Shown here piece after piece: positions 2,314-15,546 of a stretch of 23,079 nucleotides of DNA. Positions within the stretch are counted from its first letter, which is position 1. Every line of letters starts with the position of its first letter. Location: positions 1,437-24,515 of IMG/VR virus record IMGVR_UViG_3300003621_000025. One strand, given 5' to 3'. Position numbers and translations under genes: made by a program. The notes under the pieces were generated by a model. The model was not told the DNA's origin, made no database searches, and saw only the letters and a program-made list of their open reading frames with translations. The stretch comes from a virus.

Positions 2314-2349
2314 TTTGTAGTTTAGCTAAGTGCGTCAGTCAACACTTAG
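2314..2349 (-). promoter_or_regulatory. Minus-strand promoter with perfect CTAAGTG-N10-CACTTAG operator (site A)
   Basis: On the minus strand, TTGACT (2342-2337) lies 17 bases before TACAAA (2319-2314), a fair sigma-70 promoter. The -35 box sits in the spacer of a perfect inverted repeat: CTAAGTG at 2326-2332 and CACTTAG at 2343-2349, ten bases apart. A protein bound there would cover the promoter of the ssDNA-binding-like gene. The stop codon of the polymerase gene (2335-2337) lies inside the element. Confidence 0.6.
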
Positions 2350-4446
2350 TTCTTCCTGTATCATCCAATTAGGACCACAAGAGAACTCAATATCCAGAGG
2401 CAAGGTAGCCTTGTAATTGAACCGCTCGAGCATCTCATCAGGCACACCAGTCATGGCCCACTTGAGTCCTTGTTTTACCTGATCAATTTCATCTGGGTGG
2501 ATGTCTACGACAATGCTGTCATGCACAGTCAGTATCAACTTGGACTGTAACTTATGCTCACGGAAATACTTCTGCGCTCGGATACAGGCTAAGGGGACTT
2601 GGTCTGCTGTAGCAAAACTCTGCACCGGAAAGTTTACCACTTGGGTGTGGTTAGTGACCCTACCTGACCGCATACGTTTGGCTCCGGGGAAGGCGAACTG
2701 TCGTCCAGAAGGTGTCTGGATGTAGCCCTTCTTCAGAACATCGTCAGCCAATTCTGAATGCCACTTCTTTAGGCCTTTGTAGACGTTGAAGTATTCTTGG
2801 AAGTAGACCTGAACATGGCTCGGCAGACCTGCTCCCATGCCCCCATAAAGGGGAGCGAACGTCACCGCCTTTGCCGCAGACCTTTGATCCTTTGTGACCT
2901 CACTGGCCTCGATCTGGTGGATAATACCAGCGGTCTGGCTGTGAACGTCTTTGCCGTTCTTAATGTCCGATATGATCTGAGGGTCTTGTGATAGTTCCCC
3001 CGCCACACGGAACTCTAGGCCAGAGAAGTCGGCCTCTCCAATTAACCCATTTTCGAATCGGCTAATGATAGCCTTTCGTACCTCGAACTTATTCCCCTTA
3101 GGTAAGTTCTGGAAGTTAGGGTTTGTCGAAGACAGTCGTCCAGTAGCAGTAACAGTCTGGTTAAAGCTGCTGTGTAGTAGTCCACTGGGACGTGTCCAAG
3201 CATTGATGCCTTTGATGAAACTATCGAGGTAGGTACTGATCGCATTCAACCGGCTAGTCTTCTCCAAGAACTCTACCGCAATTAAGTTGTCCTTGAACTT
3301 AGCCTGTTGGATGAGGCGCTTGACCGTAGTCTTGTCGGTCTTGAACCCGTTGATGGACGCATCCGCAGCCGACGTAGGTGTCAGCTTTAATCCGGCTACA
3401 CGACCTGTAGGCACATACAAAGCACCTTCACCCTTACAGACAGGGCACTTGGTAAGCTGCTTATACGGCTGGCCGTCCTTGCGTATCTTCTGGATCTTAC
3501 CCTTACCATCACACTCGATGCAGTGGTGTGCCACTGTCCGGTAGACCTTCTGGGTGGTCTCACGAACACACCGAGCAAACTGGCTCTGGTTTTGGCGGGG
3601 TGGATAGAGGGGTCGACCTCTGGCATCCACTCCAATGTTCCAACGCTTACGGTGTTCATCACGGTCTATGACCTGACGGCTGTAGACTACCTTAGACATG
3701 TCGCCGCCAGAGTTTAAGTTGATAGGGGTATCGCCCATAACCTCTTCGACGATCTCTACCAGACGCTTCTCTAGCTGATCCTTCTCAGCCTGATAACCTC
3801 GACCCACCTCTTCAAGGACATCCAGATCAATACGAATGCCGTTGCCTTCAATTTCGAGAAGGAAGCCCATCATATCAAACATAAGGTCCAGCACCTTGTT
3901 AAGAGGCTGGCCGTACTCCGTCTGTAGCTCGTCTTGTTGCTGGTAGTATATCTCTGAACAGGCAATGACATCTGCATCAGCATACTCGTGGACCGTAGCC
4001 AGAGGCATGGCTTCGAAGCCTGTGCCAGACCTAAACAACTCGTCCACCAAGTCAGACTTCTTGCGAGTAACATTGCGCCGCTCGGCTGTAGCTTTAAGAG
4101 ACAACTCTGTGCGCTGGCCACGGGCCAGAACATACTCCGCCACCATCGTGCAGTATATACGATCTGGTATACGAAACCCCATCTCGATCAGCCAGAAGGC
4201 GTCGAACTTAGTGTTGTGGCACACCATTAGATCCGCCCAGTCTAATGCCTCTTGCAAAGCATCTCGGCTGTCAGGAATGTCCTGCTCGTTGTGGTGGTAG
4301 ACAGACCGCTCTACAGTTGGCCCAAAGATATCCGCCTTAGCCCAATAGGCCGCCACGCATTTGTTATCTGGGTTCTTTGGAGAGTTGTCCGTCTTATCGT
4401 TTATCTTCTTAACGGTGGTCTCTAGATCAAGAAATAGGACGTTCAT
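2335..4446 (-). CDS. Family A DNA polymerase with 3'-5' exonuclease and DnaJ-type zinc insertion
   Basis: This is the replicative polymerase (703 residues). Exonuclease motifs are DLET (D7, E9), HNTKFD (D82) and YADAD (D159), all with their acidic residues. Polymerase motif A is DFSGLEFR (D473), motif B has R522, K526, F530 and Y534, and motif C is VHDS (H642, D643); a conserved RLSSTNPNFQNLP segment lies at 437-449. Between the domains, residues 309-341 hold CIECDGKG and CPVCKGEG, two CxxCxGxG repeats as in the DnaJ central domain. That insertion is known, from memory, in HMO-2011-type marine phages. The residue equivalent to E. coli Phe762 is Phe530. The ATG at 4446 shares ATGA with a 52-residue gene upstream. 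Confidence 0.96.
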   Translation of the reverse strand: MNVLFLDLETTVKKINDKTDNSPKNPDNKCVAAYWAKADIFGPTVERSVYHHNEQDIPDSRDALQEALDWADLMVCHNTKFDAFWLIEMGFRIPDRIYCTMVAEYVLARGQRTELSLKATAERRNVTRKKSDLVDELFRSGTGFEAMPLATVHEYADADVIACSEIYYQQQDELQTEYGQPLNKVLDLMFDMMGFLLEIEGNGIRIDLDVLEEVGRGYQAEKDQLEKRLVEIVEEVMGDTPINLNSGGDMSKVVYSRQVIDRDEHRKRWNIGVDARGRPLYPPRQNQSQFARCVRETTQKVYRTVAHHCIECDGKGKIQKIRKDGQPYKQLTKCPVCKGEGALYVPTGRVAGLKLTPTSAADASINGFKTDKTTVKRLIQQAKFKDNLIAVEFLEKTSRLNAISTYLDSFIKGINAWTRPSGLLHSSFNQTVTATGRLSSTNPNFQNLPKGNKFEVRKAIISRFENGLIGEADFSGLEFRVAGELSQDPQIISDIKNGKDVHSQTAGIIHQIEASEVTKDQRSAAKAVTFAPLYGGMGAGLPSHVQVYFQEYFNVYKGLKKWHSELADDVLKKGYIQTPSGRQFAFPGAKRMRSGRVTNHTQVVNFPVQSFATADQVPLACIRAQKYFREHKLQSKLILTVHDSIVVDIHPDEIDQVKQGLKWAMTGVPDEMLERFNYKATLPLDIEFSCGPNWMIQEELSVD

Positions 4447-4601
4447 CGCTTCATGATCTCCCGCAGGTTATTCTCCAGCTTGAGAAACTCCTCAAGGATC
4501 TGGAGTTGCTTTGAGAGTAGATGGTTAGGCTTACGCTTCTGCTCCGCCTCTTTCTTCTCCATCATTTCGTAGAACTCGTGCAGGTCAGTCTCATTCAACA
4601 T
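4443..4601 (-). CDS. Small charged helical protein between helicase and polymerase
   Basis: The 52-residue protein begins MLNETDLHEF and ends EIMKR. It is rich in Glu, Lys and Leu, with heptad-like hydrophobic spacing in its second half (LLSKQLQILEEFLKLENNL), so a single amphipathic helix or short coiled coil is likely. The start overlaps the helicase end by 11 bases and the stop shares ATGA with the polymerase start, so it is embedded in the operon and translationally coupled on both sides. No family is recognised. Its position suggests an accessory replication factor, but that is only context. Confidence 0.7.
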   Translation of the reverse strand: MLNETDLHEFYEMMEKKEAEQKRKPNHLLSKQLQILEEFLKLENNLREIMKR

Positions 4602-5811
4602 AGCGAGATATCTCCGGCTGAATGTTGCAGACGATAGTGCCGTGCCAACCCGACAGCTTGTTCTTTGAGATAGTCAGAAACCGAGTATGGTCTGGCTCGT
4701 TAGTCTCCATCTCTGCGTTGTGTCGGCCTAGACCAATGATCAGGTCACTCTCGGCGGCCTTACCAATCTTAGATCCTTCCATCATGGTGTAAGACAGACG
4801 GCTCTTCTTCTCAGCTTCTACCGAGGCTTGGGACACGCCGAAGACGGCACAGTCACACCGCTTGGCTACTTCCCGCAGCCGACGATACAACTCACGCAGA
4901 CGCTCGTGGCCTGCGTTGTAGCTGCCTTCAATCTGCACTTTGTCTGCTTGGTCGATGATTAGGATGTCAGCATTGAGAGCCTTAGCTTTGGCCTCAATCT
5001 GATCGATGCTCCAGTCTTGGGCATCAAACATTTCGATGTTGTCTTCGATCTCAGCAAACTTGCGTCTGGCTGCTACGGGATCTTCTGCTATCTGATACTT
5101 GTCCTTACCGGTGTAGGCTTGCAGCGCACGATACATAGTACGCTTAGTAACCTCTTCGTTACCAAGGATCAGAACCTTGGCACCTTGGGAACAGAAACCT
5201 CCGGGCGCACAACACATGCTTACGATGAATGCCGTCTTACCAGTGTTAGGCGTGGCGAAGACAATGCCGAACTCCCCCGGCCCAATGCCGTAGCAGACCT
5301 CCTTGAGGGATTCGATGTTAAAGGCGTAACGTGCCTCGTCGGTGGCCGTAGCCATAAGTTCAAAGATGTCTTTTGTAGTCGGAGTTCCAAAGTCGTCCGG
5401 CAAGAAACCATTCTCTATCTTCTCCAGCTTCTGGCGTAGGCGGTCGTAAAGATCGAAGTTGCCTTCGTTAATCATCACACCGAGGTTGGCTATCTCCAGA
5501 CCCTCAGATCTTTTCCACATATCAGCAATAACATCTGAAGCGATGTCTTGTGACATTGGCTCTGTAGTAGCGATGGTCTGGATCATGTCCTTAACTAGGG
5601 ATCGATCTGATTCCGTAGCTACTGGGTTGTGTACGTCATAGAGAGCCAACAACTCTCTGGCGGTTATGTCGTGATCATACTTATCGTGGGCGCTGGATAG
5701 GATCTTGTAGATCTCCTGCCCTTCATCTCCAAACAGATCAGGCTTTAGACGGCCTTTGTTATCTGCATAAAATTCACTCGATAGTAAGTTCCTCAAAATT
5801 GCGTGGTCCAA
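4591..5811 (-). CDS. DnaB-family replicative DNA helicase
   Basis: The 406-residue protein has a RecA-type ATPase core: Walker A ATPNTGKT (186-193, K192), a catalytic Glu region GNEE (217-220), Walker B ILIIDQAD (283-290, D287) and the sensor GVSQ (Q327). The order and spacing match DnaB/T7 gp4 C-terminal helicases that unwind DNA at the fork as hexamers. The N-terminal 150 residues are helical and lack a primase zinc domain; the primase is encoded separately at 6155-6928. Walker A begins with Ala-Thr-Pro rather than the common Gly-x-Pro. It starts a new transcription unit just downstream of a terminator and an operator, and heads the polymerase operon. Confidence 0.92.
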   Translation of the reverse strand: MDHAILRNLLSSEFYADNKGRLKPDLFGDEGQEIYKILSSAHDKYDHDITARELLALYDVHNPVATESDRSLVKDMIQTIATTEPMSQDIASDVIADMWKRSEGLEIANLGVMINEGNFDLYDRLRQKLEKIENGFLPDDFGTPTTKDIFELMATATDEARYAFNIESLKEVCYGIGPGEFGIVFATPNTGKTAFIVSMCCAPGGFCSQGAKVLILGNEEVTKRTMYRALQAYTGKDKYQIAEDPVAARRKFAEIEDNIEMFDAQDWSIDQIEAKAKALNADILIIDQADKVQIEGSYNAGHERLRELYRRLREVAKRCDCAVFGVSQASVEAEKKSRLSYTMMEGSKIGKAAESDLIIGLGRHNAEMETNEPDHTRFLTISKNKLSGWHGTIVCNIQPEISRYVE

Positions 5812-5844
5812 GTCGCACTCTCCTGCTCAAGTTAGTGTGCTTAG

Positions 5845-5875
5845 ATAAGTGGCACGACACGCACTTAGGTGTCAA
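5845..5875 (-). promoter_or_regulatory. Operator site B with TTGACA in front of helicase gene
   Basis: ATAAGTG (5845-5851) and CACTTAG (5862-5868) form the same N10-spaced inverted repeat as at 2326-2349, with one mismatch in one arm. On the minus strand a perfect TTGACA (5875-5870) precedes it by one base. No convincing -10 lies 16-18 bases away; TATCTA at 5847-5842 is 22 bases off, so the exact promoter is unresolved. It lies between the upstream terminator and the helicase start, where a new transcript must begin. Confidence 0.5.
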
Positions 5876-5885
5876 CATCAGACAT

Positions 5886-5911
5886 AAAAAAAGCCCCGCT
5901 AAAAGCGAGGC
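5886..5911 (-). terminator. Rho-independent terminator after primase unit
   Basis: On the minus strand an 8-bp GC-rich stem (GCCTCGCT / AGCGGGGC, one G-U pair) with a 3-base loop is followed by seven T. It lies about 30 bases after the stop of the 66-residue gene and separates the primase unit from the helicase unit. Confidence 0.85.
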
Positions 5912-5939
5912 CTCTAAATCCTACTAGTATGGGGCAGGT

Positions 5940-6140
5940 CTAGTTGTTGCGGAACTTCATCCGCTTTATGTCCAAAGGCGCATCGCCTCTACGTTCTTTA
6001 AGATCCATCTGGTGATGGACCACACGTCGGTTTCCCGTGATCAATGACTTTAGGGCTTCAGCTAGTCTGGCCTCTTCTTCGGCTGCTTCGCTATACCCTT
6101 CAAACTCATAGTCTACGACTAATATACCTCTGGCTTTCAT
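5940..6140 (-). CDS. Small hypothetical protein downstream of primase
   Basis: The 66-residue protein begins MKARGILVVDYEFEGYSEAAEEEARL. It has a short beta-like N-terminus, an acidic helical middle and a basic C-terminus. The ATG at 6140 has a GGGAGAGC ribosome site about ten bases upstream, and the gene ends just before a strong terminator, so it is the last gene of the primase unit. No family is recognised. The EEEARLAEALKSL stretch suggests a helix that could pair with another protein, but no function can be assigned. Confidence 0.68.
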   Translation of the reverse strand: MKARGILVVDYEFEGYSEAAEEEARLAEALKSLITGNRRVVHHQMDLKERRGDAPLDIKRMKFRNN

Positions 6141-6154
6141 GTCTTTTGCTCTCC

Positions 6155-6928
6155 CTACAGCATTAGCTGCGTCCGCATCTCACTTACGGTCAAATGTTTC
6201 AAGTCCGTATTTGTGAATCTAACGCTCACCTCTACTAAACCACCAATACTGCTGGCTATGGACACTGCCTTACTACTAGCATCCTTGTCAAGAATAATTA
6301 TTACCTTAGCTAAGTGGCGTAGTTCAGATCTAATAGTTGGAGTAATCTTTGTGCCTAAGAGTGCGTAGCCGCTGTAGCCATCTATTCTAGAGACAGAACA
6401 GGCTGAAGGTGTATCCTCGACTAATACTGGGATACCACTACCTACTTGTATTCCCTTACTTGTATCGCCGTAAGTATACCACTTGGGTGTCCTACCGTCT
6501 AAAGCTCGGCCTACCGCACCTTTACCGTCTGAGGTATAGAATAGAACTCTATTGTCTCTAGGAGCATATTGAACCCTGATATCACCACAAGAGTAAGCCT
6601 CCCAGCTATTTACTGAGTGTAGGTATTCTATGGCCTCTGGGTGATTCTTGGGTGAACTAACTATTTTAGGCAGAGAGTTATAGTAGACCGCCTTAGCCGT
6701 CTTCTTCTGGATATGATTCTTAATTCCGTCTAAGCCTCTACCAACTTGATGAGATCCTTTGATCCCACAAGATGACCTGAAGCAATTCCAAAGAAGTCTT
6801 CCATCCTGCTTGAGTATACCAAACTTCTTACGGCCTCCGCAGAATGGGCAGTCTAAGGATTTCTTCTCCCCATCTGCTAATTTGATAGACGATAGTATCT
6901 CTACTTGGTCTCGGTATGAGTACTGCAT
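6155..6928 (-). CDS. DNA primase with zinc ribbon and TOPRIM domain
   Basis: The 257-residue protein has an N-terminal zinc ribbon C27-x2-C30 ... C49-x4-C54 (DCPFCGG, WNCFRSSCG) and a TOPRIM core: VLVED with E171 and the DxD motif ILDKDAS with D214 and D216. This is the layout of the primase half of T7 gp4, which makes RNA primers for the lagging strand. The helicase half is a separate gene here (4591-5811). The ATG at 6928 is chosen because GGAGG lies six bases upstream; a GTG at 6940 lies upstream of that site. The gene is visibly richer in A+T than its neighbours, which may indicate a separate origin. Confidence 0.88.
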   Translation of the reverse strand: MQYSYRDQVEILSSIKLADGEKKSLDCPFCGGRKKFGILKQDGRLLWNCFRSSCGIKGSHQVGRGLDGIKNHIQKKTAKAVYYNSLPKIVSSPKNHPEAIEYLHSVNSWEAYSCGDIRVQYAPRDNRVLFYTSDGKGAVGRALDGRTPKWYTYGDTSKGIQVGSGIPVLVEDTPSACSVSRIDGYSGYALLGTKITPTIRSELRHLAKVIIILDKDASSKAVSIASSIGGLVEVSVRFTNTDLKHLTVSEMRTQLML

Positions 6929-6953
6929 CTTAGCCTCCACTAAGGGGACGGTC

Positions 6954-6969
6954 GGGGCCTAGCGGCCCC
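6954..6969. other. Perfect GC hairpin in primase leader
   Basis: GGGGCC-TAGC-GGCCCC is a perfect 6-bp inverted repeat lying between operator site C and the primase ribosome site. In the minus-strand transcript it would form a leader hairpin. The flanking TCCCTTTT on the plus strand also makes it resemble a weak plus-strand terminator, but no plus gene precedes it. Confidence 0.4.
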
Positions 6970-6996
6970 TCCCTTTTACACCTAACTTTTCGTTTG

Positions 6997-7020
6997 TCTA
7001 GTGCTAAAATGCGCACTTAG
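6997..7020 (-). promoter_or_regulatory. Operator-like site C in front of primase unit
   Basis: CACTTAG (7014-7020) is intact and the partner arm ten bases away keeps only AGTG (TCTAGTG, 6997-7003). The full-match arm is followed by TTAAC, and the same CACTTAGTTAAC string occurs at site D in front of the integrase. The position upstream of the primase leader fits a regulated early promoter; the -35 and -10 boxes are not clear. Confidence 0.42.
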
Positions 7021-7078
7021 TTAACAGGCCAGCCACTACCACTAGCTGCAACTCACTGATATACCTACTAGGTCGTAT

Positions 7079-7118
7079 ACCCTGAAGGTCGTAGGTTCAA
7101 ATCCTACTCCCGCAACCA
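7079..7118 (+). other. attP: Putative attP core: 3' half of initiator tRNA-fMet
   Basis: From ACCCTGAAGG to the terminal CAACCA this stretch equals the 3' half of a bacterial initiator tRNA: end of the anticodon stem, variable loop AGGTC, T stem GTAGG/CCTAC around TTCAAAT, then acceptor strand TCCCGCA, discriminator A and CCA. The 5' half is absent, so it is not a tRNA gene. Temperate phages often carry such a fragment so that integration rebuilds the host tRNA. ACTGATAT occurs as a direct repeat on both sides (7055-7062 and 7123-7130), possible integrase arm sites. The integrase lies 1.7 kb away. Confidence 0.8.
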
Positions 7119-7144
7119 AAGTACTGATATCATTAAATAAACTT

Positions 7145-7158
7145 ACCCCTAGTGGGGT
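7145..7158 (-). terminator. Possible terminator of integrase/ThyX unit
   Basis: ACCCC-TAGT-GGGGT forms a 5-bp stem ten bases after the stop of the 2OG-oxygenase-like gene. On the minus strand it is followed by AAGTTTATTT, a T-rich but interrupted tract, so termination is plausible but weak. Confidence 0.35.
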
Positions 7159-7168
7159 GGAGTGGGCT

Positions 7169-7726
7169 TTAGTGGCCTCCGTCTGAAGTTTTTTCAGTGT
7201 CGAAGATCTTACAGACGGTATCGAAGTCCAGTTTAGTAGACAGAGCCAAAGCGATTCGATCTTTATCAGACCCAGAGTGAACACTGTGTATCTTCGTTAC
7301 ATCTAGGATGTATGCGTCTCCATCTTCTGCCACAAAGGATGCAATAGTGTCTACATCCTCGAACTGGTAGGAGCAGCCTGTAGTCTGATTAGGCAGCTTG
7401 AACGGCTTGGCACCCTCCTTGAGCTTATTGAAGTCCGTAGTGTATCCGCCAGCCTTTAGGTACAGGTTAACAACCGTACACACGCCGCTGTCGATGTGTG
7501 GAATGATGTCTCGGTTGATGTGCATATGTAGAGGCACGAACTTATGCCTTAATGGCGCAGGCATATGGTTGAGTAGCTGGGCTGTCAGCTTATGGCTGAT
7601 GATGCAGTTCTTGTAGGCAATGCCCTCGAACTCACCATCCTTCTCTATGCCATACTTAATCACGTCAATGGGACCGGCTGACACCTCTTGGGCGTCAAAT
7701 CCTATGTTTATCTTTTTATAGTGCAT
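7169..7726 (-). CDS. 2OG-Fe(II) oxygenase-like protein
   Basis: The 185-residue protein has an HxD pair (H77, D79 in PHIDSG), a hydrophobic beta strand VVNLYL, then GDAYILDVTKIHSVH with candidate distal His residues H147 and H150 and a following Arg (R157). This is the iron and 2-oxoglutarate binding order of the double-stranded beta-helix dioxygenases, many of which hydroxylate proteins or small molecules and are common in marine phages. The substrate is unknown. The ATG at 7726 has GGAG eleven bases upstream. It is the last gene of the integrase/ThyX unit, 63 bases beyond ThyX. The fold is inferred from motif spacing only. Confidence 0.55.
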   Translation of the reverse strand: MHYKKINIGFDAQEVSAGPIDVIKYGIEKDGEFEGIAYKNCIISHKLTAQLLNHMPAPLRHKFVPLHMHINRDIIPHIDSGVCTVVNLYLKAGGYTTDFNKLKEGAKPFKLPNQTTGCSYQFEDVDTIASFVAEDGDAYILDVTKIHSVHSGSDKDRIALALSTKLDFDTVCKIFDTEKTSDGGH

Positions 7727-7789
7727 TGGCAGACTCCATAACTTGTCTTCTTACTGTTTGCGATAAATACGGGGCTACTACTCGCAGTA

Positions 7790-8545: not shown

Positions 8546-8703
8546 TAGAAGGGGGGTTCTCCGTTCTCATCCAATTCTGGCATATTATATTCAAAGGTCC
8601 GTGGGACCACGGGTTCGTTCTGTGTTTCCTCAAGAGGATGGCGGGGTAGTATTCCCATCTGTTCCATCTCTTTGAGGATGTAGGCGGGGATGTTATCTTC
8701 CAT
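8545..8703 (-). CDS. Small acidic hypothetical protein before ThyX
   Basis: The 52-residue protein begins MEDNIPAYILKEMEQMGILP and ends ENGEPPF. It has a short helical N-terminus followed by a proline-rich acidic stretch, probably disordered. It overlaps the preceding small gene by 11 bases and ThyX by one base, so translation is coupled on both sides, which is the main reason to accept it. No family is recognised. Confidence 0.65.
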   Translation of the reverse strand: MEDNIPAYILKEMEQMGILPRHPLEETQNEPVVPRTFEYNMPELDENGEPPF

Positions 8704-8839
8704 CTCGTTTCCTTAGCTGGTCTCGGACTGCTACGATCAGGTCGATCAGTCTCTCTGTGGTTTGTTGTGTTGGCTTGCCTACCAACCGCTCTAGTTCTTG
8801 CTCAAATGCCTTTCGGGCCTCGTTTATGTCGTCTGTCAT
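8693..8839 (-). CDS. Small helical hypothetical protein after integrase
   Basis: The 48-residue protein begins MTDDINEARKAFEQELERLV and ends LRKRDGR. It looks like two amphipathic helices with alternating charged residues. Its ATG shares ATGA with the integrase stop and its end overlaps the next small gene by 11 bases, so it belongs to the integrase/ThyX unit. No family is recognised; a small dimeric helical protein such as an integrase cofactor is possible, but nothing in the sequence shows it. Confidence 0.62.
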   Translation of the reverse strand: MTDDINEARKAFEQELERLVGKPTQQTTERLIDLIVAVRDQLRKRDGR

Positions 8840-9915
8840 CCAAACCTCTTGCTCATTGCTTTCGAAGCCAGCTTCTTAGTTGGCCTCACATAGACGTTCA
8901 GCACGTTACGGCTCATGTGACCGGTGACTGATCGTAGTTCGTCCTCGGTACAGCCAGCCTCTGCTAATTCAGTGGCTCCGGTACGTCGTAGGTCTCGTAG
9001 TTGGAGTGTCGTAGGCAGTCCTGCCGCCTCTCTGATCTTGGCGGCGTACTTGCTGTACAGTCGATTGTCGTAAGGTCTGCCTGTAGTCTCACACAGGACA
9101 ATAGGATCGTCGTCAGAGCCTCTCACAACCGTCTCTAGGCGCTCTGCTAGTCGGGGGGAGGCTTCGACATACACTTCGGCTTTTGTCTTCTCTTGGACAA
9201 AGGTGAAGACACCGTCGTTGTAGTGCTTCCAGAGCATCTTACGCATATCACCCGGGCGCTGGCACAGGTCGTAGCACATCAGAGCCAGTGTGCCGACGCT
9301 GGGTAGGCCTAGGCTGTCTGCTTTGTCGATGAAATTGGCTACTTGCTCCGGCTCCCATAGCACTACACGAGGTGGTGTCTCGGTCAGGCCCATCATAGCG
9401 AATGGGTTGGTGCTGTTAGGCGAAATGAAGCCTCGTCGTCCAGTGAACCATATGCGGCGTAGGATCTTGCACACGCCATTGGCTCGGTGGATGCTGTAGG
9501 TCTCTCGCACAGTGTCGTAGACCTTGTCTGCCATCTCGGCATCGACACCTCGAGCCAGCAACTGGCCGAAGGGGGTGTTAGACTGGCCAATGCGAAGGTG
9601 GGAGACTGTCTTGTACAAGAACCTGTACGTCCGCTGGGTGTTGGCTGACTTCAGTTTGAAGGCTTTGTGCTGTGTGTAGAAGTGAAACAAGGCATCCACG
9701 GTCTCTCTATCCAGCTTAGACCGCTTCTCTCGGGTGCGCTCGAACTCCTCAAGGGCACGGGAGATCATCTTGCAGTGTTCTACAGCCTCTTCACGGCTCT
9801 TAAACTGCTCGTAGGATGCTTCCACATGCTCTTTAGCATAGTCTGAAGGATTGCAGACCCAGATAGGACCGCTGGCCCTGTCTCTACGCTCGAGGTATTT
9901 AATCTTCTCTGTCAT
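8836..9915 (-). CDS. int: Tyrosine recombinase (phage integrase)
   Basis: The 359-residue protein has an N-terminal core-binding region (about 68-165) and a catalytic domain with R220 (QRPGD), K243 (EKTKAE), RDLRRT (307-312), H333 (TGHMS) and Y342 (NVYV). The usual HxxR box reads R307-x-x-R310, so its His is replaced by Arg while the catalytic Arg is kept. It should join attP to the host site; the tRNA-fMet fragment at 7079-7118 is the obvious candidate. The ATG at 9915 is chosen over upstream starts because GGAG lies eight bases before it. Operator site D lies just upstream, and the gene heads the unit containing ThyX. Confidence 0.92.
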   Translation of the reverse strand: MTEKIKYLERRDRASGPIWVCNPSDYAKEHVEASYEQFKSREEAVEHCKMISRALEEFERTREKRSKLDRETVDALFHFYTQHKAFKLKSANTQRTYRFLYKTVSHLRIGQSNTPFGQLLARGVDAEMADKVYDTVRETYSIHRANGVCKILRRIWFTGRRGFISPNSTNPFAMMGLTETPPRVVLWEPEQVANFIDKADSLGLPSVGTLALMCYDLCQRPGDMRKMLWKHYNDGVFTFVQEKTKAEVYVEASPRLAERLETVVRGSDDDPIVLCETTGRPYDNRLYSKYAAKIREAAGLPTTLQLRDLRRTGATELAEAGCTEDELRSVTGHMSRNVLNVYVRPTKKLASKAMSKRFG

Positions 9916-9943
9916 TCTGATAACTCCATCAGTTATATCGCCA

Positions 9944-9977
9944 CTAATCGCTACTATAAGCACTTAGTTAACGTCAA
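9944..9977 (-). promoter_or_regulatory. Operator site D with TTGACG in front of integrase
   Basis: CACTTAG (9961-9967) has a degenerate partner CTAATCG (9944-9950, five of seven) at the same ten-base spacing. On the minus strand TTGACG (9977-9972) precedes it by four bases. A TATAGT follows but only 13 bases from TTGACG, so the -10 is uncertain. The site lies about 30 bases upstream of the integrase ATG. Confidence 0.48.
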
Positions 9978-9991
9978 TAGAAAAGATTTAA

Positions 9992-10019
9992 TTGACATGG
10001 TGTGGTGTTTTGTTAGTCT
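9992..10019 (+). promoter_or_regulatory. Candidate promoter for small RNA
   Basis: A perfect TTGACA (9992-9997) is followed after 16 bases by TAGTCT (10014-10019), a weak -10. It points away from the integrase and toward a plus-strand terminator at 10076-10105 with no protein gene in between. Confidence 0.42.
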
Positions 10020-10105
10020 GGTCATGCGGACTACCTGCTCCGCATCCTCCCTGTGAGCCTCATGCTCTAACTCAGCCCCTTGGTCTCCGGATCGAGGGGT
10101 TTTTT
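10020..10105 (+). ncRNA. Candidate small RNA with hairpins and its own terminator
   Basis: About 85 bases between the candidate promoter and a strong terminator hold no credible plus-strand reading frame. ATGCGGA (10024-10030) pairs with TCCGCAT (10039-10045) around an 8-base loop, GAGC (10055-10058) pairs with GCTC (10064-10067), and the terminator stem closes the 3' end. This is the usual architecture of a short regulatory RNA. The 5' end is uncertain, since the predicted start falls within the first hairpin. No known RNA family or target is recognised. Confidence 0.42.
10076..10105 (+). terminator. Rho-independent terminator, plus strand
   Basis: CCCCTTGGTC pairs with GATCGAGGGG around the loop TCCG: ten pairs including two G-U, followed by six T. 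It implies a plus-strand transcript ending between the integrase and the small gene at 10161. Confidence 0.85.
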
Positions 10106-10109
10106 CATT

Positions 10110-10132
10110 AAAAAAGGCCCCCGAAGGAGCCT
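10110..10132 (-). terminator. Rho-independent terminator with TTCG tetraloop, minus strand
   Basis: On the minus strand AGGCTCC-TTCG-GGGGCCT forms a 7-bp stem with a stable UUCG-type loop, followed by a run of T. It ends the small gene at 10161-10337 and stands back to back with the plus-strand terminator five bases away. Confidence 0.85.
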
Positions 10133-10140
10133 GATTTACT

Positions 10141-10416
10141 TGCACGTCAAAGCATTACTGCTAGTCGGATACTATCCTAGCAATGGTAGTGTATCCTTCA
10201 TCATGCCCATCATCTAAGGGCATTACCGCCACTATAGCGCCTTCACCTACTTTGATCACAACACGGTCTTTATCAGAATCGGAGGCATCGATCAGTGCAT
10301 TTCCTAGTTCGTATGCGTCAGCTTTTGTTAGTATCATCGTTCACCTTCCGTTCGTATAAGATTACCATAGGTCACCTTTATTTTTGAAAACTACTGGCAC
10401 GTCAAGCATTAACTGC
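10141..10416 (+). repeat. Imperfect direct repeat flanking a small gene
   Basis: GCACGTCAAAGCATTACTGC (10142-10161) and GCACGTCAAGCATTAACTGC (10397-10416) are the same 20-base element with one A shifted. They lie 255 bases apart and flank the small minus-strand gene, the left copy touching its stop codon. Confidence 0.7.
10161..10337 (-). CDS. Small hypothetical protein between flanking repeats
   Basis: The 58-residue protein begins MILTKADAYELGNALIDASD and ends TTIARIVSD. A likely N-terminal helix is followed by a run of beta-like strands (RVVIKVGEGAIVAVMP), giving a compact alpha/beta protein. The ATG at 10337 has a good GGAAGGTGA ribosome site, and a terminator follows the stop by about 30 bases, so it is a single-gene unit transcribed toward the integrase. 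No family is recognised. Its isolated position in the control region and the flanking direct repeats suggest a separately acquired gene, possibly regulatory, but it has no visible DNA-binding motif. Confidence 0.68.
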   Translation of the reverse strand: MILTKADAYELGNALIDASDSDKDRVVIKVGEGAIVAVMPLDDGHDEGYTTIARIVSD

Positions 10417-10520
10417 AACTCAAGCATCCACCAATACTTATCCACAGCAATACTCATCCTTATACACACTCTTGCACCTACTTAGGTGCAGGCATACGCA
10501 GGTTCATATATAAGAAAAAA
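10370..10520. other. Candidate replication origin (two DnaA boxes, palindrome, AT-rich flank)
   Basis: TTATCCACA (10438-10446) is the exact DnaA consensus, and TTATACACA (10460-10468) also fits TTATNCACA. They have the same orientation, 22 bases apart, about two helical turns. The perfect palindrome TGCACC-TACTTA-GGTGCA (10473-10490) follows, with an AT-rich flank at 10379-10390 and 10505-10523. The stretch lies where minus-strand and plus-strand transcription diverge and encodes no gene. DnaA-dependent initiation, or simply DnaA-regulated transcription of the plus operon, are the two readings. Confidence 0.5.
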
Positions 10521-10604
10521 GGAAAACGGCGCAGCAAGGTGCAGCTTCATGATTTAACAAAGTGCTTGCTAAGGTCATGAAATGGATTTACTGGTGTTTG
10601 GGTA

Positions 10605-10643
10605 GGGGCACTTCCGCCCCGCACTAACTTGGAGAAAATGACC
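10605..10643 (+). promoter_or_regulatory. Leader hairpin plus repeated ribosome-site cassette
   Basis: GGGGC-ACTTCC-GCCCC (10605-10620) is a leader hairpin followed by AACTTGGAG and ATGACCATG. The same hairpin-plus-cassette is found at 11640-11684 (GGGGG/CCCCC hairpin), and the cassette alone at 12271-12288. In each case the second ATG of ATGACCATG has the correct distance (8-9 bases) from GGAG, which decides the start. Confidence 0.6.
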
Positions 10644-11630
10644 ATGAACACTTTTGCAAACCTTTCGCACCTGTCCCCCGAGATCATCAACTTGGCTCAG
10701 GAACTGCACCGCCGCCAGCAGGCCGAGCAGCCGAGCCAAGAGATGCGCCGCCTGTTTCCTGCTTTGGACAAAACAGGCTTCGAGGCCGAGGCCGTCGATC
10801 TGTTCCATTGCTATGACCAGAACGACAACGGCACAGCATCGATGGGTGAGGTGCCGCACAATGTCGGGCGGTTGATCCGCCGCACCGATACGAACCAGCC
10901 GCTGGGTGTAGTGGGTGAACGCTACGCCATCGCACAGAACCAAGACCTTGCCGACAAACTGGCCGAGGGCTGCGAGGCTGCACTGCCTACCCGTGCTTTG
11001 CAGGGGATCGAACTGCGGGAGCATACCAGCCGCAACGGTCGGTTTAGCCGCTTTGAATATTCTTTTCCTGAGCTGGGTGCAGACATCCGCCAGCTAACAG
11101 GCCGCAGCACCCAACTGAAATTTCGGGTAGCGGTGGTTAATGGCTTCTCAGGCACAAGTATTCGTGCGACGGCTGGGGCCATTGACTGGTATTGCACCAA
11201 CGGCATGACCTTTGGCGAATTCGAAACATCTGTGTTCCGCCACACCTCAGGCTTTAACCCCAACAAGGTGAAGACCTTTGTTACGCTCGAGGCCGAGCGG
11301 TTCAAAGAGCGGGTGAGCATCTGGCAGCGTTGGGCGCTTAACGAGATCAACCCAGCCGAGGCCGAACTGGCCCTTGAAGAGGCGGGGATGGCTGGCCGCA
11401 CGGTCAAAGGCATCATGGAGCAATTCGACATCGAGGCGCAGGAACGGGGGGCCACAACGTGGGCGCTCTATTCGGCGCTGACTTACCGCTCGAGCCACAA
11501 CAGCGAACGCTTTGGCGTCCGCAACAGTTCCAACATCGACAACGTGGCCGAGGTTCTGGATCGCCGAGAGCGTGAGGTTGGGCAACTGATCGCCCACCCT
11601 GCAATGCAGCGTGTCGGGATGGCCGCCTAA
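10644..11630 (+). CDS. DUF932 (phage/plasmid-like) protein
   Basis: The 328-residue protein has the DUF932 signature near residue 80, RRTDTNQPLGVVGERYAIAQNQDL, corresponding to the family pattern of a leader strand, LGvVs, RY and QN. DUF932 proteins are found on plasmids and phages; their function is not established, and links to DNA modification or plasmid maintenance are guesses. The length is ordinary for the family. It opens the plus-strand operon, and its GC content and codon choice (many GCC, GAG, CTC-GAG) differ from the phage genes on both sides, which suggests transfer from an alphaproteobacterial plasmid or chromosome. The second ATG is taken as start from ribosome-site spacing. Confidence 0.82.
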   Translation: MNTFANLSHLSPEIINLAQELHRRQQAEQPSQEMRRLFPALDKTGFEAEAVDLFHCYDQNDNGTASMGEVPHNVGRLIRRTDTNQPLGVVGERYAIAQNQDLADKLAEGCEAALPTRALQGIELREHTSRNGRFSRFEYSFPELGADIRQLTGRSTQLKFRVAVVNGFSGTSIRATAGAIDWYCTNGMTFGEFETSVFRHTSGFNPNKVKTFVTLEAERFKERVSIWQRWALNEINPAEAELALEEAGMAGRTVKGIMEQFDIEAQERGATTWALYSALTYRSSHNSERFGVRNSSNIDNVAEVLDRREREVGQLIAHPAMQRVGMAA

Positions 11631-11681
11631 TCACTAACGGGGGGCCGAGTGTCCCCCACCATTTAACTTGGAGAAATGACC

Positions 11682-12182
11682 ATGAACGAACAGACAATCA
11701 TCACCGCACTGCAAGCGCCAATAAAACTCGAGGGCTTCGGCGATGCCGACATCCCAGAGAAAGCGCAGCGCCGTATCGATCGGCTGCAACGCCGCATCGA
11801 GGCACGGGATGCAGACCACAACGCAGATCAGGCGACGATCCGCAGCCTGACGCATCGAGCCGAGAGCGCCGAGCAAACGCTCGAGAGCGTCCGAGAAACT
11901 GGCGCAGGCTTCGAGCGGGGCTGGCATCGAGCCACAGCCGAGGTGACCGAACTGCAAGGCAAGCTGATGTGTGCCCAACTTAACGAGGCCGCAGCCCTCG
12001 CACGGCTCAACGATGGCGACACATGGGCCAAACGCTGGGAGGCTGAATGTCTACATCAGCGCAAAGATTATGAGGCGCTCGAGGGCCAGCTAAACGATAT
12101 GCGCAGCCGCCTTGTCGAGGCTCGAGCCGAGATACGCAGCCTGACCAGCCGCAACATCTGGCAGCGTATCTGGGGCCGCTGA
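11682..12182 (+). CDS. Coiled-coil hypothetical protein
   Basis: The 166-residue protein is almost entirely helical, with repeated Arg/Glu/Ala/Leu patterns (for example IDRLQRRIEARD and MRSRLVEARAEIRSL) that make an extended coiled coil likely. It ends in a basic aromatic tail (NIWQRIWGR), which might touch membrane or nucleic acid. No family is recognised. It follows the DUF932 gene after a hairpin leader and the repeated AACTTGGAG cassette, and its stop overlaps the start of a 23-residue membrane peptide. Leu before Glu is written CTC-GAG every time, as elsewhere in this module. Confidence 0.75.
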   Translation: MNEQTIITALQAPIKLEGFGDADIPEKAQRRIDRLQRRIEARDADHNADQATIRSLTHRAESAEQTLESVRETGAGFERGWHRATAEVTELQGKLMCAQLNEAAALARLNDGDTWAKRWEAECLHQRKDYEALEGQLNDMRSRLVEARAEIRSLTSRNIWQRIWGR

Positions 12183-12253
12183 TGTCTGGCCTGTATTGCC
12201 TGATCGGCTTTGTAACATTCTGGGGGGCGGTCCTGTATTGGATCGCCACCTGA
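12182..12253 (+). CDS. 23-residue single-membrane-span microprotein
   Basis: The frame starts within the preceding stop (TGATG) and encodes MSGLYCLIGFVTFWGAVLYW plus IAT, one hydrophobic helix long enough to cross a membrane with almost no flanking residues. Translation would be coupled to the coiled-coil gene. There is no independent ribosome site, so it could be chance. The tight overlap, the uniformly hydrophobic composition and the operon habit of overlapping starts argue for a real membrane peptide. Confidence 0.45.
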   Translation: MSGLYCLIGFVTFWGAVLYWIAT

Positions 12254-12285
12254 TCACCACCGAAATCTAACTTGGAGAAATGACC

Positions 12286-12666
12286 ATGACCAACGAACAA
12301 ATGAAAGAACTCGAGCGCCGCTTGGATCCGACAGGGGCCATCGAGGTTTACTTGTGGGACGAACTGAACGATGGGGACGCATGGGCCAGCCCTGACCTGA
12401 TCGTGCAGAAACTGTTGCAGGCTCAGTGCGTGAATGGCTCTTGGAATGGGCTGATCTACACCCGAGACGTGCTGGCCAAACTGGCCGATGATCATTGGCA
12501 GGACGCCATCGATGACGTGCTGGCCGAGATCACCGATTATGACCAAGCGCCCCGCATCTTGTCGCTGGGTGATCTTGTCTGGCTGGCTGTCGATCACACC
12601 GCCGCCATGATGGGCCACAGGCTCGAGGCCATCTTGGAGACGCTGAAAGATGAGGTGGCGGCATGA
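12286..12666 (+). CDS. Acidic hypothetical protein of plasmid-like module
   Basis: The 126-residue protein begins MTNEQMKELERRLDPTGAIE and is acidic and Trp-containing, with a C-terminal helical part (HRLEAILETLKDEVAA). No catalytic motif or family is recognised. It is preceded by the third copy of the AACTTGGAG/ATGACCATG cassette, and its second ATG gives the better spacing. Its stop shares ATGA with the next gene, starting a chain of five overlapping small genes. Confidence 0.72.
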   Translation: MTNEQMKELERRLDPTGAIEVYLWDELNDGDAWASPDLIVQKLLQAQCVNGSWNGLIYTRDVLAKLADDHWQDAIDDVLAEITDYDQAPRILSLGDLVWLAVDHTAAMMGHRLEAILETLKDEVAA

Positions 12667-12857
12667 GGTTTGAGGTATTGCGCAGCTATATGTCGGTGGA
12701 TGTCTACCACGTCGAGGCCGAGAGCGAGGCCGAGGCCATCCGCAAGGCCAAGGAAGGCGAAGGCCATGTGAAAACCTACGACGGCGACTATGATGCTGAC
12801 ATAAGCGTTGAACCGCTCGAGGCGCTGGCCGAGATCGAGAAGGAGGGCGCAGCATGA
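12663..12857 (+). CDS. Small acidic alpha/beta hypothetical protein
   Basis: The 64-residue protein begins MRFEVLRSYMSVDVYHVEAE. Two beta-like strands are followed by a helix rich in Glu/Ala (ESEAEAIRKAKEGE), a layout common in small plasmid and phage proteins that carry the AeseeeAi pattern after a strand; function is unknown for these. It ends EGAA. Its start overlaps the previous stop (GGCATGA) and its end contains GGAGGGCGCAGCATGA, which supplies both a ribosome site and the start of the next gene. Confidence 0.7.
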   Translation: MRFEVLRSYMSVDVYHVEAESEAEAIRKAKEGEGHVKTYDGDYDADISVEPLEALAEIEKEGAA

Positions 12858-13039
12858 AGGTCTGGGATAAAGCTATAACTGAGGTCGAGGGATATCACAC
12901 GGTAACAGTGGACCGAGACGAAGATTGTGACCACGGCCCATGCACAGGCTATACGATCAAGGATCTGGGGCTGACGGTGTTCTTATATGATAACGACGCC
13001 AGCCTGCTTTCGTTTCACCTTGAGGAGGACGCAGCATGA
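12854..13039 (+). CDS. Small acidic hypothetical protein with paired Cys/His
   Basis: The 61-residue protein begins MKVWDKAITEVEGYHTVTVD and contains DEDCDHGPC, a local Cys-x-His-x2-Cys group that could bind a metal, although no second ligand group is present. The rest looks beta-rich (YTIKDLGLTVFLYD). It ends EEDAA. It overlaps its neighbours by four bases on both sides. No family is recognised. Confidence 0.65.
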   Translation: MKVWDKAITEVEGYHTVTVDRDEDCDHGPCTGYTIKDLGLTVFLYDNDASLLSFHLEEDAA

Positions 13040-13218
13040 TCACCATCAAGGAAGCACTGACCAACTATTGGGCAGACCTGCGTTATAACGGGCTGCACTG
13101 TGGCCGTGAAACGCTCAACGATCTGAGCTGCGGCACACCCTATTTCGAAAGTGATGATGAGATGACCGCTTACTTCGACGCAATCGAGAGGCTGTTATCT
13201 GGGGAGGGCGCAGCATGA
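13036..13218 (+). CDS. Small hypothetical protein, coupled chain member
   Basis: The 60-residue protein begins MITIKEALTNYWADLRYNGL and contains two Cys (GLHCGRETLNDLSCG) and a C-terminal helix (MTAYFDAIERLLSGEGAA). It looks like a small helical domain; no family is recognised. The upstream GAGGAGGACGCAGCATGA gives a ribosome site and four-base overlap, and its own 3' end repeats the GGAGGGCGCAGCATGA junction. The four-base overlaps are the main support for this frame. Confidence 0.65.
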   Translation: MITIKEALTNYWADLRYNGLHCGRETLNDLSCGTPYFESDDEMTAYFDAIERLLSGEGAA

Positions 13219-13394
13219 ACTATGACGCAGAGATAAGATGGATCAGAGCAGCAACCCGAGCCGCCAAGCCAAGGTGGGACCGCATGGACTGGATCGAGCG
13301 CTATAAAGAGGCAAAGGGGTGCAGCATTTGGGATGCCCGAGAAGCGTGGCAGATGGCCAAGATCATGGGCACACTAGAGGAACCGATCACATGA
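13215..13394 (+). CDS. Small basic Trp-rich hypothetical protein
   Basis: The 59-residue protein begins MNYDAEIRWIRAATRAAKPR and has five Trp and many Arg/Lys, unlike its acidic neighbours. Helices with exposed Trp and Arg suggest binding to nucleic acid or to an acidic partner, but no known motif is present. It starts in the GGAGGGCGCAGCATGA junction and ends in ATGA shared with the next gene. Although no separate promoter exists, the reading frame fits exactly between the two overlaps. Confidence 0.62.
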   Translation: MNYDAEIRWIRAATRAAKPRWDRMDWIERYKEAKGCSIWDAREAWQMAKIMGTLEEPIT

Positions 13395-13558
13395 GCCTGA
13401 CAGTATATATGGAAAAGCCGCAGGCATGGGCCGAGCCAATAGCCACCTTTGAAAGTGAGGCCGTCTATATGCTGTGCGTCCCTGCACTCGAGGCGTGGGC
13501 CGAGGCAAAGGGCTACATCATCACCGAGAGCATGGATGAGGAACTGGCCGACGATTAG
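13391..13558 (+). CDS. Small acidic hypothetical protein, last gene of module
   Basis: The 55-residue protein begins MSLTVYMEKPQAWAEPIATF and ends MDEELADD. It combines a short beta-like start with an Ala/Glu helix (ALEAWAEAKG) and an acidic tail. The ATG at 13391 overlaps the previous stop by four bases and is preferred over the frame's earlier possible starts, which would overlap the previous gene deeply. A strong terminator begins 25 bases after its stop. No family is recognised. Confidence 0.62.
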   Translation: MSLTVYMEKPQAWAEPIATFESEAVYMLCVPALEAWAEAKGYIITESMDEELADD

Positions 13559-13583
13559 GCCGCAGCCCACAACAGAGACCAAG

Positions 13584-13612
13584 AACCCCTGCCATTCGGT
13601 GGGGGTTTTTTT
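13584..13612 (+). terminator. Strong rho-independent terminator closing the DUF932 module
   Basis: AACCCCTGCC pairs with GGTGGGGGTT around ATTC: ten pairs with two G-U, running into seven T. It ends the plus-strand operon 10644-13558. Confidence 0.9.
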
Positions 13613-14048
13613 ATGCCCTCAGAGCGTCTGAGAGGGGGCACAGGGGCGCAGGCTGATTGATCGAGCAGGGGAAGCCTACCGACAGTGCAGAGATGGGCAC
13701 GAGAGGGGCCTTGCAGGGCGTCTGAGAGTGTGGGCCGTCTGAGGTGGTGGCCGAGGTGATGTGATCGGGTGGCTGCCGGTGCGGATGTCTGGCCGGTGAT
13801 CGAGGCGAGGGGCTGGCGGATGTCGGGCTGTATCATGCACCCGAGGCCCCCGCCCTCTGGCGTTATGCGTTTGGCAACGGCTGAGAGTTTTTCGTGGCCC
13901 GAGACCGAAACCACGCCCAGCCCACCATCTGGCCGCAGCCCTATAGGGGGTAGGGTCTCCCGATATCGGGGCCGATACCTAAGAGGTAACACGCTCGAGC
14001 GCCTGAGCTTTAACCTAGGGGCTAAAACCCCAGCAAAACAAGGGGTTT

Positions 14049-14087
14049 CGAGGCCGTATCGAGGCCAGACCGAGGCCGAGCGAGGCC
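14049..14087 (+). repeat. Four CGAGGCC repeats at helical spacing
   Basis: CGAGGCC occurs at 14049, 14060, 14071 and 14081, with steps of 11, 11 and 10 bases, so every copy faces the same side of the helix. The array abuts the hairpin at 14025-14048. Such phasing is typical of binding sites for a cooperatively binding protein. Confidence 0.7.
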
Positions 14088-14255
14088 CCCCACCGAGCGC
14101 CACCCCCGGGGGTACCCGTTAGCGTATACCACTCTGACCAAATCTAGGGATTTCGGTACCGTAAACAGCCCCGGTGCGGACCCAGAACTGCGTAATGTCA
14201 AAACCCAAAGGCTTATTTCCGGGGTTTGGTGTGGTATAACTGTAAACCCGGCTTG

Positions 14256-14311
14256 TTAGGTGGCTAAATACGCACTTAGCAGTTGACCTAGGCCCTATAT
14301 CTGGCTAGTTT
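14256..14311 (+). promoter_or_regulatory. Operator site E and plus-strand promoter
   Basis: TTAGGTG (14256-14262) and CACTTAG (14273-14279) are ten bases apart, five of seven and seven of seven matches to the operator arms. Three bases later comes TTGACC (14283-14288), then after 17 bases a weak TAGTTT (14306-14311). It lies about 50 bases upstream of the gene at 14363. Confidence 0.5.
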
Positions 14312-14362
14312 AACGAGATCCGGGGCCAGTATCCGGGTATGCGCCAGTATAAGGGGCGTCTT

Positions 14363-14698
14363 ATGTCGGATTTCGGCGTTAGCTTAGAACTCGAGGTGCC
14401 AGTTTACCTCGAACATGACCTTGAGGTGGACGATGACGGCACCTTGTACCTTAATTCCTTCCTTTATCTTTCGGATAACGACGACTCGACAGAGGTAAGG
14501 ATAGAGTTCCAGCCTATTGTGGAGACGGTGGTCGATATCGCCCGTGATTTCAGCGATGGGTATAAGCAGTTGTATGGCATTGCACATGAATTTGAGCGTC
14601 ATGCCGCCCGTATGCGGGACGTAGCCGCCCGAATGGAAGATTCACTGTCTAATGTCGGGGATCTCTTTGAAGTAGGAGACCTCGATGATGTGGAGTGA
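14363..14698 (+). CDS. Acidic hypothetical protein
   Basis: The 111-residue protein begins MSDFGVSLELEVPVYLEHDL and is strongly acidic throughout, with an N-terminal beta-rich part, a helical middle (VVDIARDFSDGYKQLYGIAHEFERHAARM) and an acidic end. No family is recognised. Very acidic small phage proteins are sometimes DNA mimics that block host DNA-binding enzymes, but nothing specific supports that here. The ATG at 14363 has AAGGGG about seven bases upstream; the earlier ATG at 14339 has none. The end overlaps the next gene by 14 bases. Confidence 0.68.
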   Translation: MSDFGVSLELEVPVYLEHDLEVDDDGTLYLNSFLYLSDNDDSTEVRIEFQPIVETVVDIARDFSDGYKQLYGIAHEFERHAARMRDVAARMEDSLSNVGDLFEVGDLDDVE

Positions 14699-15077
14699 GG
14701 AAGAACTAGCTGACTTCTCTAAGGCAGAGATGCTTGAGGCCCATGTACGGAAGAAACTATCCAGTAATCTGTATGTAGCCGCTAATAAGTGCCGAGATAA
14801 TGGCATACCCTTCGAGGTTACCGTCGAAGACCTGATGCCAGTGCCTCTAACGTGCCCTGTGCTAGGTATTAAGCTGGATTGGTACAAGGATGGTCGTGGT
14901 GGAGCCGACGAAAGCCCGTCTATAGACCGCCTAGAGCCTGACGTAGGTTATGTGCCGGGTAATGTCTCGGTTATCTCCCAAAGAGCCAACCGAATTAAGA
15001 ACGATAGTGACTTATCTGAACTATTGCTCGTAGCCGCTTGGGTACAGGCCCAGACAACAGAAAAGGCCCGAGCCTAA
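14685..15077 (+). CDS. HNH-like endonuclease family protein
   Basis: The 130-residue protein contains TCPVLGIKL (56-64) followed by SPSIDRLEPDVGYVPGNVSV and ISQRANRIKND (81-111). From memory this matches a widespread phage family related to HNH / endonuclease VII-type nucleases, in which D-R, N-V and the N...K positions replace a classical His-Asn-His set. It may cut DNA as a homing-type or recombination nuclease; I see no second zinc-binding Cys pair, so activity is uncertain. The ATG at 14685 has AGGAG seven bases upstream within the previous gene. It closes the short unit started at site E. Confidence 0.55.
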   Translation: MMWSEEELADFSKAEMLEAHVRKKLSSNLYVAANKCRDNGIPFEVTVEDLMPVPLTCPVLGIKLDWYKDGRGGADESPSIDRLEPDVGYVPGNVSVISQRANRIKNDSDLSELLLVAAWVQAQTTEKARA

Positions 15078-15121
15078 GCCCGAGCCTTAACAGATCTTGA
15101 TCACCTACCTTGATTAAGAAC

Positions 15122-15151
15122 AGGCTAGGGGGGACTATTAGACCCCCGCCT
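15122..15151 (+). terminator. GC hairpin after HNH-like gene, possible terminator without U tract
   Basis: AGGC (15122-15125) plus GGGGG (15129-15133) pair with CCCCC (15143-15147) plus GCCT (15148-15151), a nine-pair stem with a two-base bulge. No T run follows on the plus strand, so termination is uncertain. The region 15078-15220 is otherwise empty. Confidence 0.35.
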
Positions 15152-15220
15152 AACCACAATTAGGATTGTAGCACGGATTTAGCACTTTGGCAATCCGTAA
15201 AATACTTATCCCGCACACCG

Positions 15221-15250
15221 TTGACCTAAGTGTACCATATGGGGTATAAT
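15221..15250 (+). promoter_or_regulatory. Strong sigma-70 promoter with CTAAGTG half-site (site F)
   Basis: TTGACC (15221-15226) and a perfect TATAAT (15245-15250) are separated by 18 bases. CTAAGTG (15226-15232) overlaps the -35 box; no second arm is present ten bases later. This is the best promoter in the window and heads the unit of small genes leading into the packaging genes. Confidence 0.75.
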
Positions 15251-15279
15251 TATTAGGTGGCGGATACTCCACTCAGTGA

Positions 15280-15546
15280 GTGACTCCCTTGTCCATAAAT
15301 TTACACTACATCCGAGCGGCCATCGAGGCCAATACTGGAGTGCGGTTGTCTCTCGAGAGAACCCGGGAACTTCTCGTTGAAGAAGGCCTGATCACCCAGC
15401 ATCAAGCGGATACCCAAGCCGAGATCTTCCGTGGTTATGGTGACTTCTACAATGAGGACTATCCATCGACCCTAGTGAAGGAAGATCCACAAGATATCAA
15501 AGACGACCTCAACCGTGAGGTTCGTAATCTGGAGAACTCACGATGA
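15280..15546 (+). CDS. Hypothetical early protein downstream of strong promoter
   Basis: The frame gives 88 residues from the GTG at 15280; a TTG at 15289 is also possible, and neither has a clear ribosome site, so the start is uncertain. The protein is helical and acidic (VRLSLERTRELLVEEGLIT near residue 21) and ends NREVRNLENSR. No family is recognised. It is the first gene after promoter F, with a very short leader, and overlaps the next gene by four bases. Confidence 0.62.
   Translation: MTPLSINLHYIRAAIEANTGVRLSLERTRELLVEEGLITQHQADTQAEIFRGYGDFYNEDYPSTLVKEDPQDIKDDLNREVRNLENSR

Follow-up and report, generated by a model that had tools for sequence, protein, structure and literature searches.

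A recurrent CACYTAR half-site in two dyad geometries as a candidate operator regulon of CRP-3-like marine phages

Introduction

Under lambda/P22-type cI control, palindromic operators overlap the core promoters of the temperate phage, and in lambda itself three sites are clustered at each of two divergent promoters. In the cluster A mycobacteriophages (L5/Bxb1), the consensus of the operators-stoperators shifts from one related phage to the next in step with immunity (PMC6550527). The available part of a further account describes the stoperators as asymmetric sites of about 13 bp that lie mostly outside promoters, in one orientation, and have a known monomeric repressor (PMC9283540).

Phages of the HMO-2011 type are reported to dominate in the ocean and to occur widely there (PMC9038755). 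One of them, CRP-3, has been shown to integrate into the host tRNA-Met and is experimentally temperate (PMC6918029). Control of lysogeny or of gene timing is absent from the published descriptions of HMO-2011-type phages consulted here, although CRP-3 integrates; those of CRP-3 and CRP-212 name the integrase and the integration site, and the words promoter and repressor occur in neither.

Results

The window and its relatives

The stretch of 23,079 nucleotides analysed here (the window) lies inside an IMG/VR virus record of 28.7 kb. The second half of the phage's genome, roughly 24 kb, lies outside the record. The phage is a relative of Roseobacter phage CRP-3, with 78% DNA identity across 39% of the window. 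As in CRP-3, one strand carries, in this order, genes for the integrase, ThyX, the primase, the helicase, a family A polymerase, an SSB-like protein and a Cas4-like exonuclease, and the opposite strand carries small genes, the terminase and the portal. This synteny, together with homology of the integrase, primase, helicase, polymerase, portal and terminase, places the phage in the HMO-2011-type/CRP-3 group. CRP-3 and CRP-212, both of the HMO-2011 type, match it in phage group, gene order and the sites at orthologous promoters. The window's polymerase and SSB-like proteins have 100% identical counterparts on one IMG/VR contig (3300003909_000040). CRP-3, CRP-212 and CRP-235 were all isolated on strain FZCC0040, and CRP-207 infects the same host.

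A tyrosine integrase (8836-9915, minus strand) and an attP-like stretch matching a tRNA are consistent with a temperate phage; integration itself has been demonstrated for CRP-3 only. The stretch in question (7079-7135, 57 bp) resembles the 3′ part of a tRNA, comprising the T-arm and acceptor with a CCA end, and shows a 91% match to CRP-235. It is likely to be attP, in line with the tRNA-Met integration of CRP-3. A scan of GTDB genomes for prophages carrying the helicase returned none.

A half-site concentrated in non-coding DNA

The recurrent word is CAC[C/T]TA[A/G] (CACYTAR). In the window, 12 of its 16 copies are non-coding, against 1.6 expected for the 10% of the sequence that is non-coding. 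Pooled over the window, CRP-3 and CRP-212, there are 36 non-coding and 35 coding copies where non-coding DNA makes up 8.3% of the sequence (p about 1e-20, the counts not being independent, as the pooled phages are related). When its letters are permuted in all 1,260 ways, the actual word takes first rank in the window and in the pooled set, and second rank in both CRP-3 and CRP-212; relaxation of the half-site, done by eye on these very sequences, preceded this test. Motif-free k-mer counts also recover CACTTA, CACCTAA and ACACCTA. The preliminary description of this DNA had named an equal frequency of the N10-spaced pair inside genes as the outcome that would speak against its reading; the half-site is instead strongly concentrated in non-coding DNA. 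Its statement that every complete CACTTAG is non-coding does not hold, since among eight exact CACTTAG/CTAAGTG copies one lies in the last polymerase codons (2343-2349) and one in the primase gene (6310-6316, minus strand). The latter had been singled out as intragenic and without a partner; it is indeed intragenic, with a match of only 5/7 at the N10 partner position, and is likely a chance occurrence, but it is not the sole intragenic exact copy.

With annotated gaps taken as non-coding, CACYTAR shows no enrichment in CRP-207, CRP-1, CRP-345, CRP-603 or HMO-2011. Annotated gaps were preferred for these outgroups because masks built with an automatic gene caller were too coarse. Under the automatic mask, G001 has only 2 of 15 copies in non-coding DNA, a weak value that we ascribe to the poor mask, because its sites at 3293, 13453, 15145, 26140 and 52655 sit in leaders orthologous to annotated CRP-3 leaders.

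Two dyad geometries

With up to three mismatches allowed, CTAAGTG-N10-CACTTAG matches the window seven times against 0.89 expected, and none of 100 shuffles reaches seven. The five dyads first described, at 2326-2349, 5845-5868, 6997-7020, 9944-9967 and 14256-14279, are confirmed. So is their ten-base spacing, as a relaxed scan for YTARGTG-N10-CACYTAR (at least 12/14) gives N10 as the commonest of the spacings 0-30, with seven matches, followed by N11 with five and N14 with four; the Markov null for the relaxed dyad has a mean of 0.73 and a maximum of 4. The N10 dyad had been taken as the regulatory unit, and its reality stands, but a further dyad at 15253-15276 and a second pairing had been missed. 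The second pairing is everted and gapless (CACYTAR-YTARGTG) and occurs at 10475-10488 and 15960-15973.

Around the exact non-coding half-sites of the window and CRP-212, partners matching at 6/7 or better are found in the convergent N10 position in 8/28 cases and in the everted gapless position in 8/28, and both geometries stand out among the offsets tested. A signal at offset 3 was excluded as evidence, being mostly forced by the self-complementary YTAR core. Dyad symmetry with a preferred spacing is thus present in two forms (convergent N10, everted N0), with half-site offsets of 17 and 7, a difference of 10 bp. The half-site CACYTAR, paired in either of two ways, describes the unit better than the N10 form alone. 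The same clade-specific flanking base is seen in the convergent and everted forms, from which we infer one reader for both.

Sites and promoters in the window

The dyad at 2326-2349 is perfect (0 mismatches), and its arms lie on either side of the putative -35 of the SSB-like gene. On the minus strand it reads CTAAGTG-[TTGACT]-GACG-CACTTAG-CTAAAC-[TACAAA], a geometry that is the same in CRP-3, CRP-212 and 21 IMG/VR contigs. The putative core promoter spans 2314-2342 on that strand (-35 TTGACT at 2337-2342, -10 TACAAA at 2314-2319, spacer 17), and its geometry is kept in relatives. The gene downstream of the site (1442-2287, minus strand) is SSB-like by synteny and has no Pfam or PHROG match; the 3′ end of the DNA polymerase A gene (2335-4446, minus strand) overlaps the site.

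Three further minus-strand leaders carry convergent N10 dyads. That of the DnaB-like helicase (4591-5811, minus strand) has one at 5845-5868 (13/14, 1 mismatch), directly downstream of TTGACA at 5870-5875. The helicase promoter and operator are immediately preceded by a terminator-like hairpin with a T tail (5889-5915, minus strand), which makes the helicase look like a separate transcription unit. In the leader of the primase (phrog_47; 6155-6940, minus strand), the dyad at 6997-7020 has a weaker left arm (3 mismatches), its CTAAGTG overlaps the -35-like TTAACT at 7019-7024, and it aligns in CRP-212 as CTAAGTG-N10-CACTAGA. The same leader bears a single half-site CACCTAA (6979-6985, plus strand), and TTAGGTG is found in the corresponding CRP-3 leader. 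The integrase-leader dyad (9944-9967; 12/14, 2 mismatches) lies downstream of TTGACG at 9972-9977, and its counterpart in CRP-3 is TTGACC-TTAACTAAGTG.

An everted palindrome, CACCTAC-TTAGGTG (13/14), is located at 10475-10488, upstream of a DUF932 gene. The surrounding gap at 10338-10643, where CRP-3 gp58-gp60 are absent here, also holds a DnaA-box-like word, TTATCCACA, near 10438.

On the plus strand, the dyad at 14256-14279, perfect to YTARGTG/CACYTAR with 2 mismatches to the strict form, ends 3 bp upstream of TTGACC at 14283-14288 and precedes the gene for a 119-aa acidic protein of the CRP-3 gp52 family (14339-14698, plus strand). The spacing is that of CRP-3 and CRP-212, where the junction reads CACCTAA-CTG-TTGACC (CRP-3, and also G001) or CACCTAA-CTG-TTGACT (CRP-212). 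An Endonuclease VII-like HNH protein is encoded at 14685-15077; it weakly resembles PHROGs of the Srd anti-sigma and sigma-decoy kinds. The best sigma-70-like promoter (15221-15250) does have a half-site touching its -35, as first described, but this CTAAGTG (15226-15232, minus strand) is not conserved in CRP-3. The dyad at 15253-15276 (plus strand, 13/14 relaxed) lies directly downstream of that promoter, reads TTGGGTG in CRP-3, and is followed by the gene for a small helical protein of the CRP-3 gp50 family (15280-15546, plus strand). The everted palindrome CACCTAA-CAGGGTG (15960-15973, flanks CG/CG) lies directly upstream of TATAAT at 15977-15982 in the promoter of the gene for a small DUF1127 protein (16013-16165, plus strand; CRP-3 gp47; Pfam E 1.8e-8), which is conserved throughout the group.

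All promoters are consensus readings. Since a consensus scan gave fewer promoter-like sites than shuffles (9 vs 13.5), the promoter calls draw solely on comparative geometry and not on the scan.

Conservation at orthologous promoters

Conservation of the sites in related phages, proposed as a check in the preliminary description, is borne out. Orthologous promoters of CRP-3, CRP-212 and uncultured relatives carry the sites as well, and CRP-235 has a drifted form of them; the leaders concerned are those of the SSB-like, helicase, primase, integrase, gp52, DUF1127 and coat genes. The last of these is late, and its promoter bears the site in CRP-3, CRP-212 and G001. The assignment to early transcription units is therefore too narrow for the set as a whole.

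The SSB-like promoter, with the architecture YTARGTG-[TTGACY]-N4-CACYTAR-N6-[-10], is the clearest example. Of 2.9 million IMG/VR contigs scanned, 22 contain YTARGTGTTGAYN5CACYTAR, and 21/22 carry it at the polymerase/SSB-like junction of this clade, with polymerases 52% to 100% identical to that of the window. The pattern had been picked from the site itself, and 38 non-redundant junctions located through the helicase and the polymerase were added as an unbiased set; six of these score 14/14, and shuffles never score above 12. Another branch in this set retains only CACTTAR, in the spacer after GTGC. The right arm carries the weight here, because the left arm is partly coding (polymerase C-terminus) and the right arm lies mostly past the stop codon. 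Four junctions (L048, L054, L059, L099) hold CACTARTARGTG-like palindromes with a shorter CAC-GTG spacing, possibly further operator variants. At the DUF1127 promoter, the arms of the everted palindrome co-change symmetrically across relatives, as CGCAC..GTGCG or ACACC..GGTGT.

Spelling of the word and candidate regulators

The spelling is GCACYTAR in CRP-3, ACACYTAR in CRP-212 and CCCYTAR in CRP-235, where 16/30 copies of the latter are non-coding. The base before CAC (position -1) is G in 14/20 sites of the window and CRP-3 vs 0/16 in CRP-212 (p = 1.3e-5).

No clear cognate DNA-binding protein was recognised in the window, and PHROG and Pfam scans of the small proteins of CRP-3 returned no recognised repressor, with sub-threshold matches only. 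The HTH-like proteins noticed were gp56 and gp59, both absent or without the HTH in the window phage. The gp56 N-terminal HTH is present in CRP-3, G001, G002 and CRP-212 (CRP-212 gp55, HTH_23/HTH_7 match, E 2e-4), but the window homologue (11676-12182) lacks it and retains only the coiled-coil C-terminus. No homologue of gp59, winged-helix-like by eye, was found in the window, and CRP-3 and G003, with DUF1127 operators of the GCAC and the ACAC type respectively, share 91% identity in this protein. Moreover, G002 combines CRP-212-like gp56 and gp59 with CRP-3-like operators. The gp50 family has an N-terminus modelled by AlphaFold2 as a confident three-helix structure. As a reader it is not supported: it gave no PDB fold match (best Z 3.5) and no family match, and its N-terminus is near-invariant over phages with differing operators. 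DUF1127 proteins were set aside as well, the host members described in the available part of the literature binding RNA or PhoR. Integrase arm sites are a poor description of the set, as only the 6997 site is close to attP.

Discussion

We consider it probable that a single regulator encoded by the phage uses the sites as operators, and that it is most likely a repressor, acting as a dimer, which silences the replication, integration and late promoters. The original proposal of a regulon under one trans-acting factor that is not recognisable in the window is thereby supported as the best reading of the sequence. The regulator would bind the CACYTAR half-site, one protein would read both the convergent and the everted geometry, and it would silence its target promoters, for lysogeny or timing, mainly by occluding the -35 or the spacer. 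The putative reader would lie outside the annotated repressor families.

Repression is favoured over activation because the sites overlap the -35 or spacer of promoters with a good -35, at offsets that vary by gene: straddling the -35 (SSB-like), downstream of it (helicase, integrase) or upstream of it (gp52). A phage-encoded activator or dual regulator that turns on replication and late promoters in lytic growth is unlikely, though it deserves weighing. Some room for activation is left by the DUF1127 promoter, which has TATAAT and the palindrome with no clear -35 in several relatives, and by the gp52 site, whose position upstream of the -35 is also used by activators; the site at the late coat promoter points the same way. 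Against this, the position of the sites relative to the -35 and -10 is not fixed, and the TTGAC -35 elements at most site-bearing promoters are good enough to work without an activator.

Host factors are used by many phage promoters, and no phage regulator could be named here. That a host transcription factor exploited by the phage reads the sites is nevertheless quite improbable, as three phages of one host strain, FZCC0040, spell the word differently genome-wide and CRP-207, on the same host, shows no enrichment. These observations make a reader that is encoded by the phage, and that evolves together with its sites, the most likely one. The repeats might instead be RNA hairpins or leader structures, since CTAAGTG-N10-CACTTAG is able to form a 7-bp stem. 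We regard this as very improbable: the SSB dyad spans the -35 and would be untranscribed from that promoter, the palindrome of the everted form has neither gap nor loop, and the arm changes between CRP-3 and the window (C/T and A/G steps) ignore pairing. An Rfam search gave no match, which counts neither for nor against RNA structure. An origin of the word by chance, or from the composition of AT-richer leaders, can be dismissed almost entirely, for although some exact copies lie within genes and G001 scores poorly under the automatic mask, the word ranks first of 1,260 same-letter permutations, its orthologous positions are conserved and the IMG/VR scan is specific to one junction.

Beyond the operator regulon as such, we tentatively suggest, as a possibility we hold to be less than even, that one phage protein reads the half-site as convergent 10-bp-gap and everted gapless pairs one helical turn apart, and that its specificity has shifted stepwise (GCAC, ACAC, CCC) among same-host phages, giving graded immunity groups. 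If true, such groups would exist in an abundant marine phage group without a known repressor, and the spelling differences between CRP-3, CRP-212 and CRP-235 predict a pattern of mutual immunity in their shared cultured host. The sites at 2326-2349 and 15960-15973 offer ready bait for the regulator.

With lambda and P22 the window phage shares palindromic sites over (predicted) core promoters. It differs from lambda in that its sites occur singly, at seven or more transcription units, with no cI/Cro-like gene recognised. From the cluster A stoperators it differs in that the sites are located at promoters and often palindromic, and not asymmetric, in one orientation and mostly away from promoters. 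As in L5 and Bxb1, a single short word recurs along the genome of a temperate phage with a family A DNA polymerase (PMC6550527), and the consensus of that word drifts in concert between related phages.
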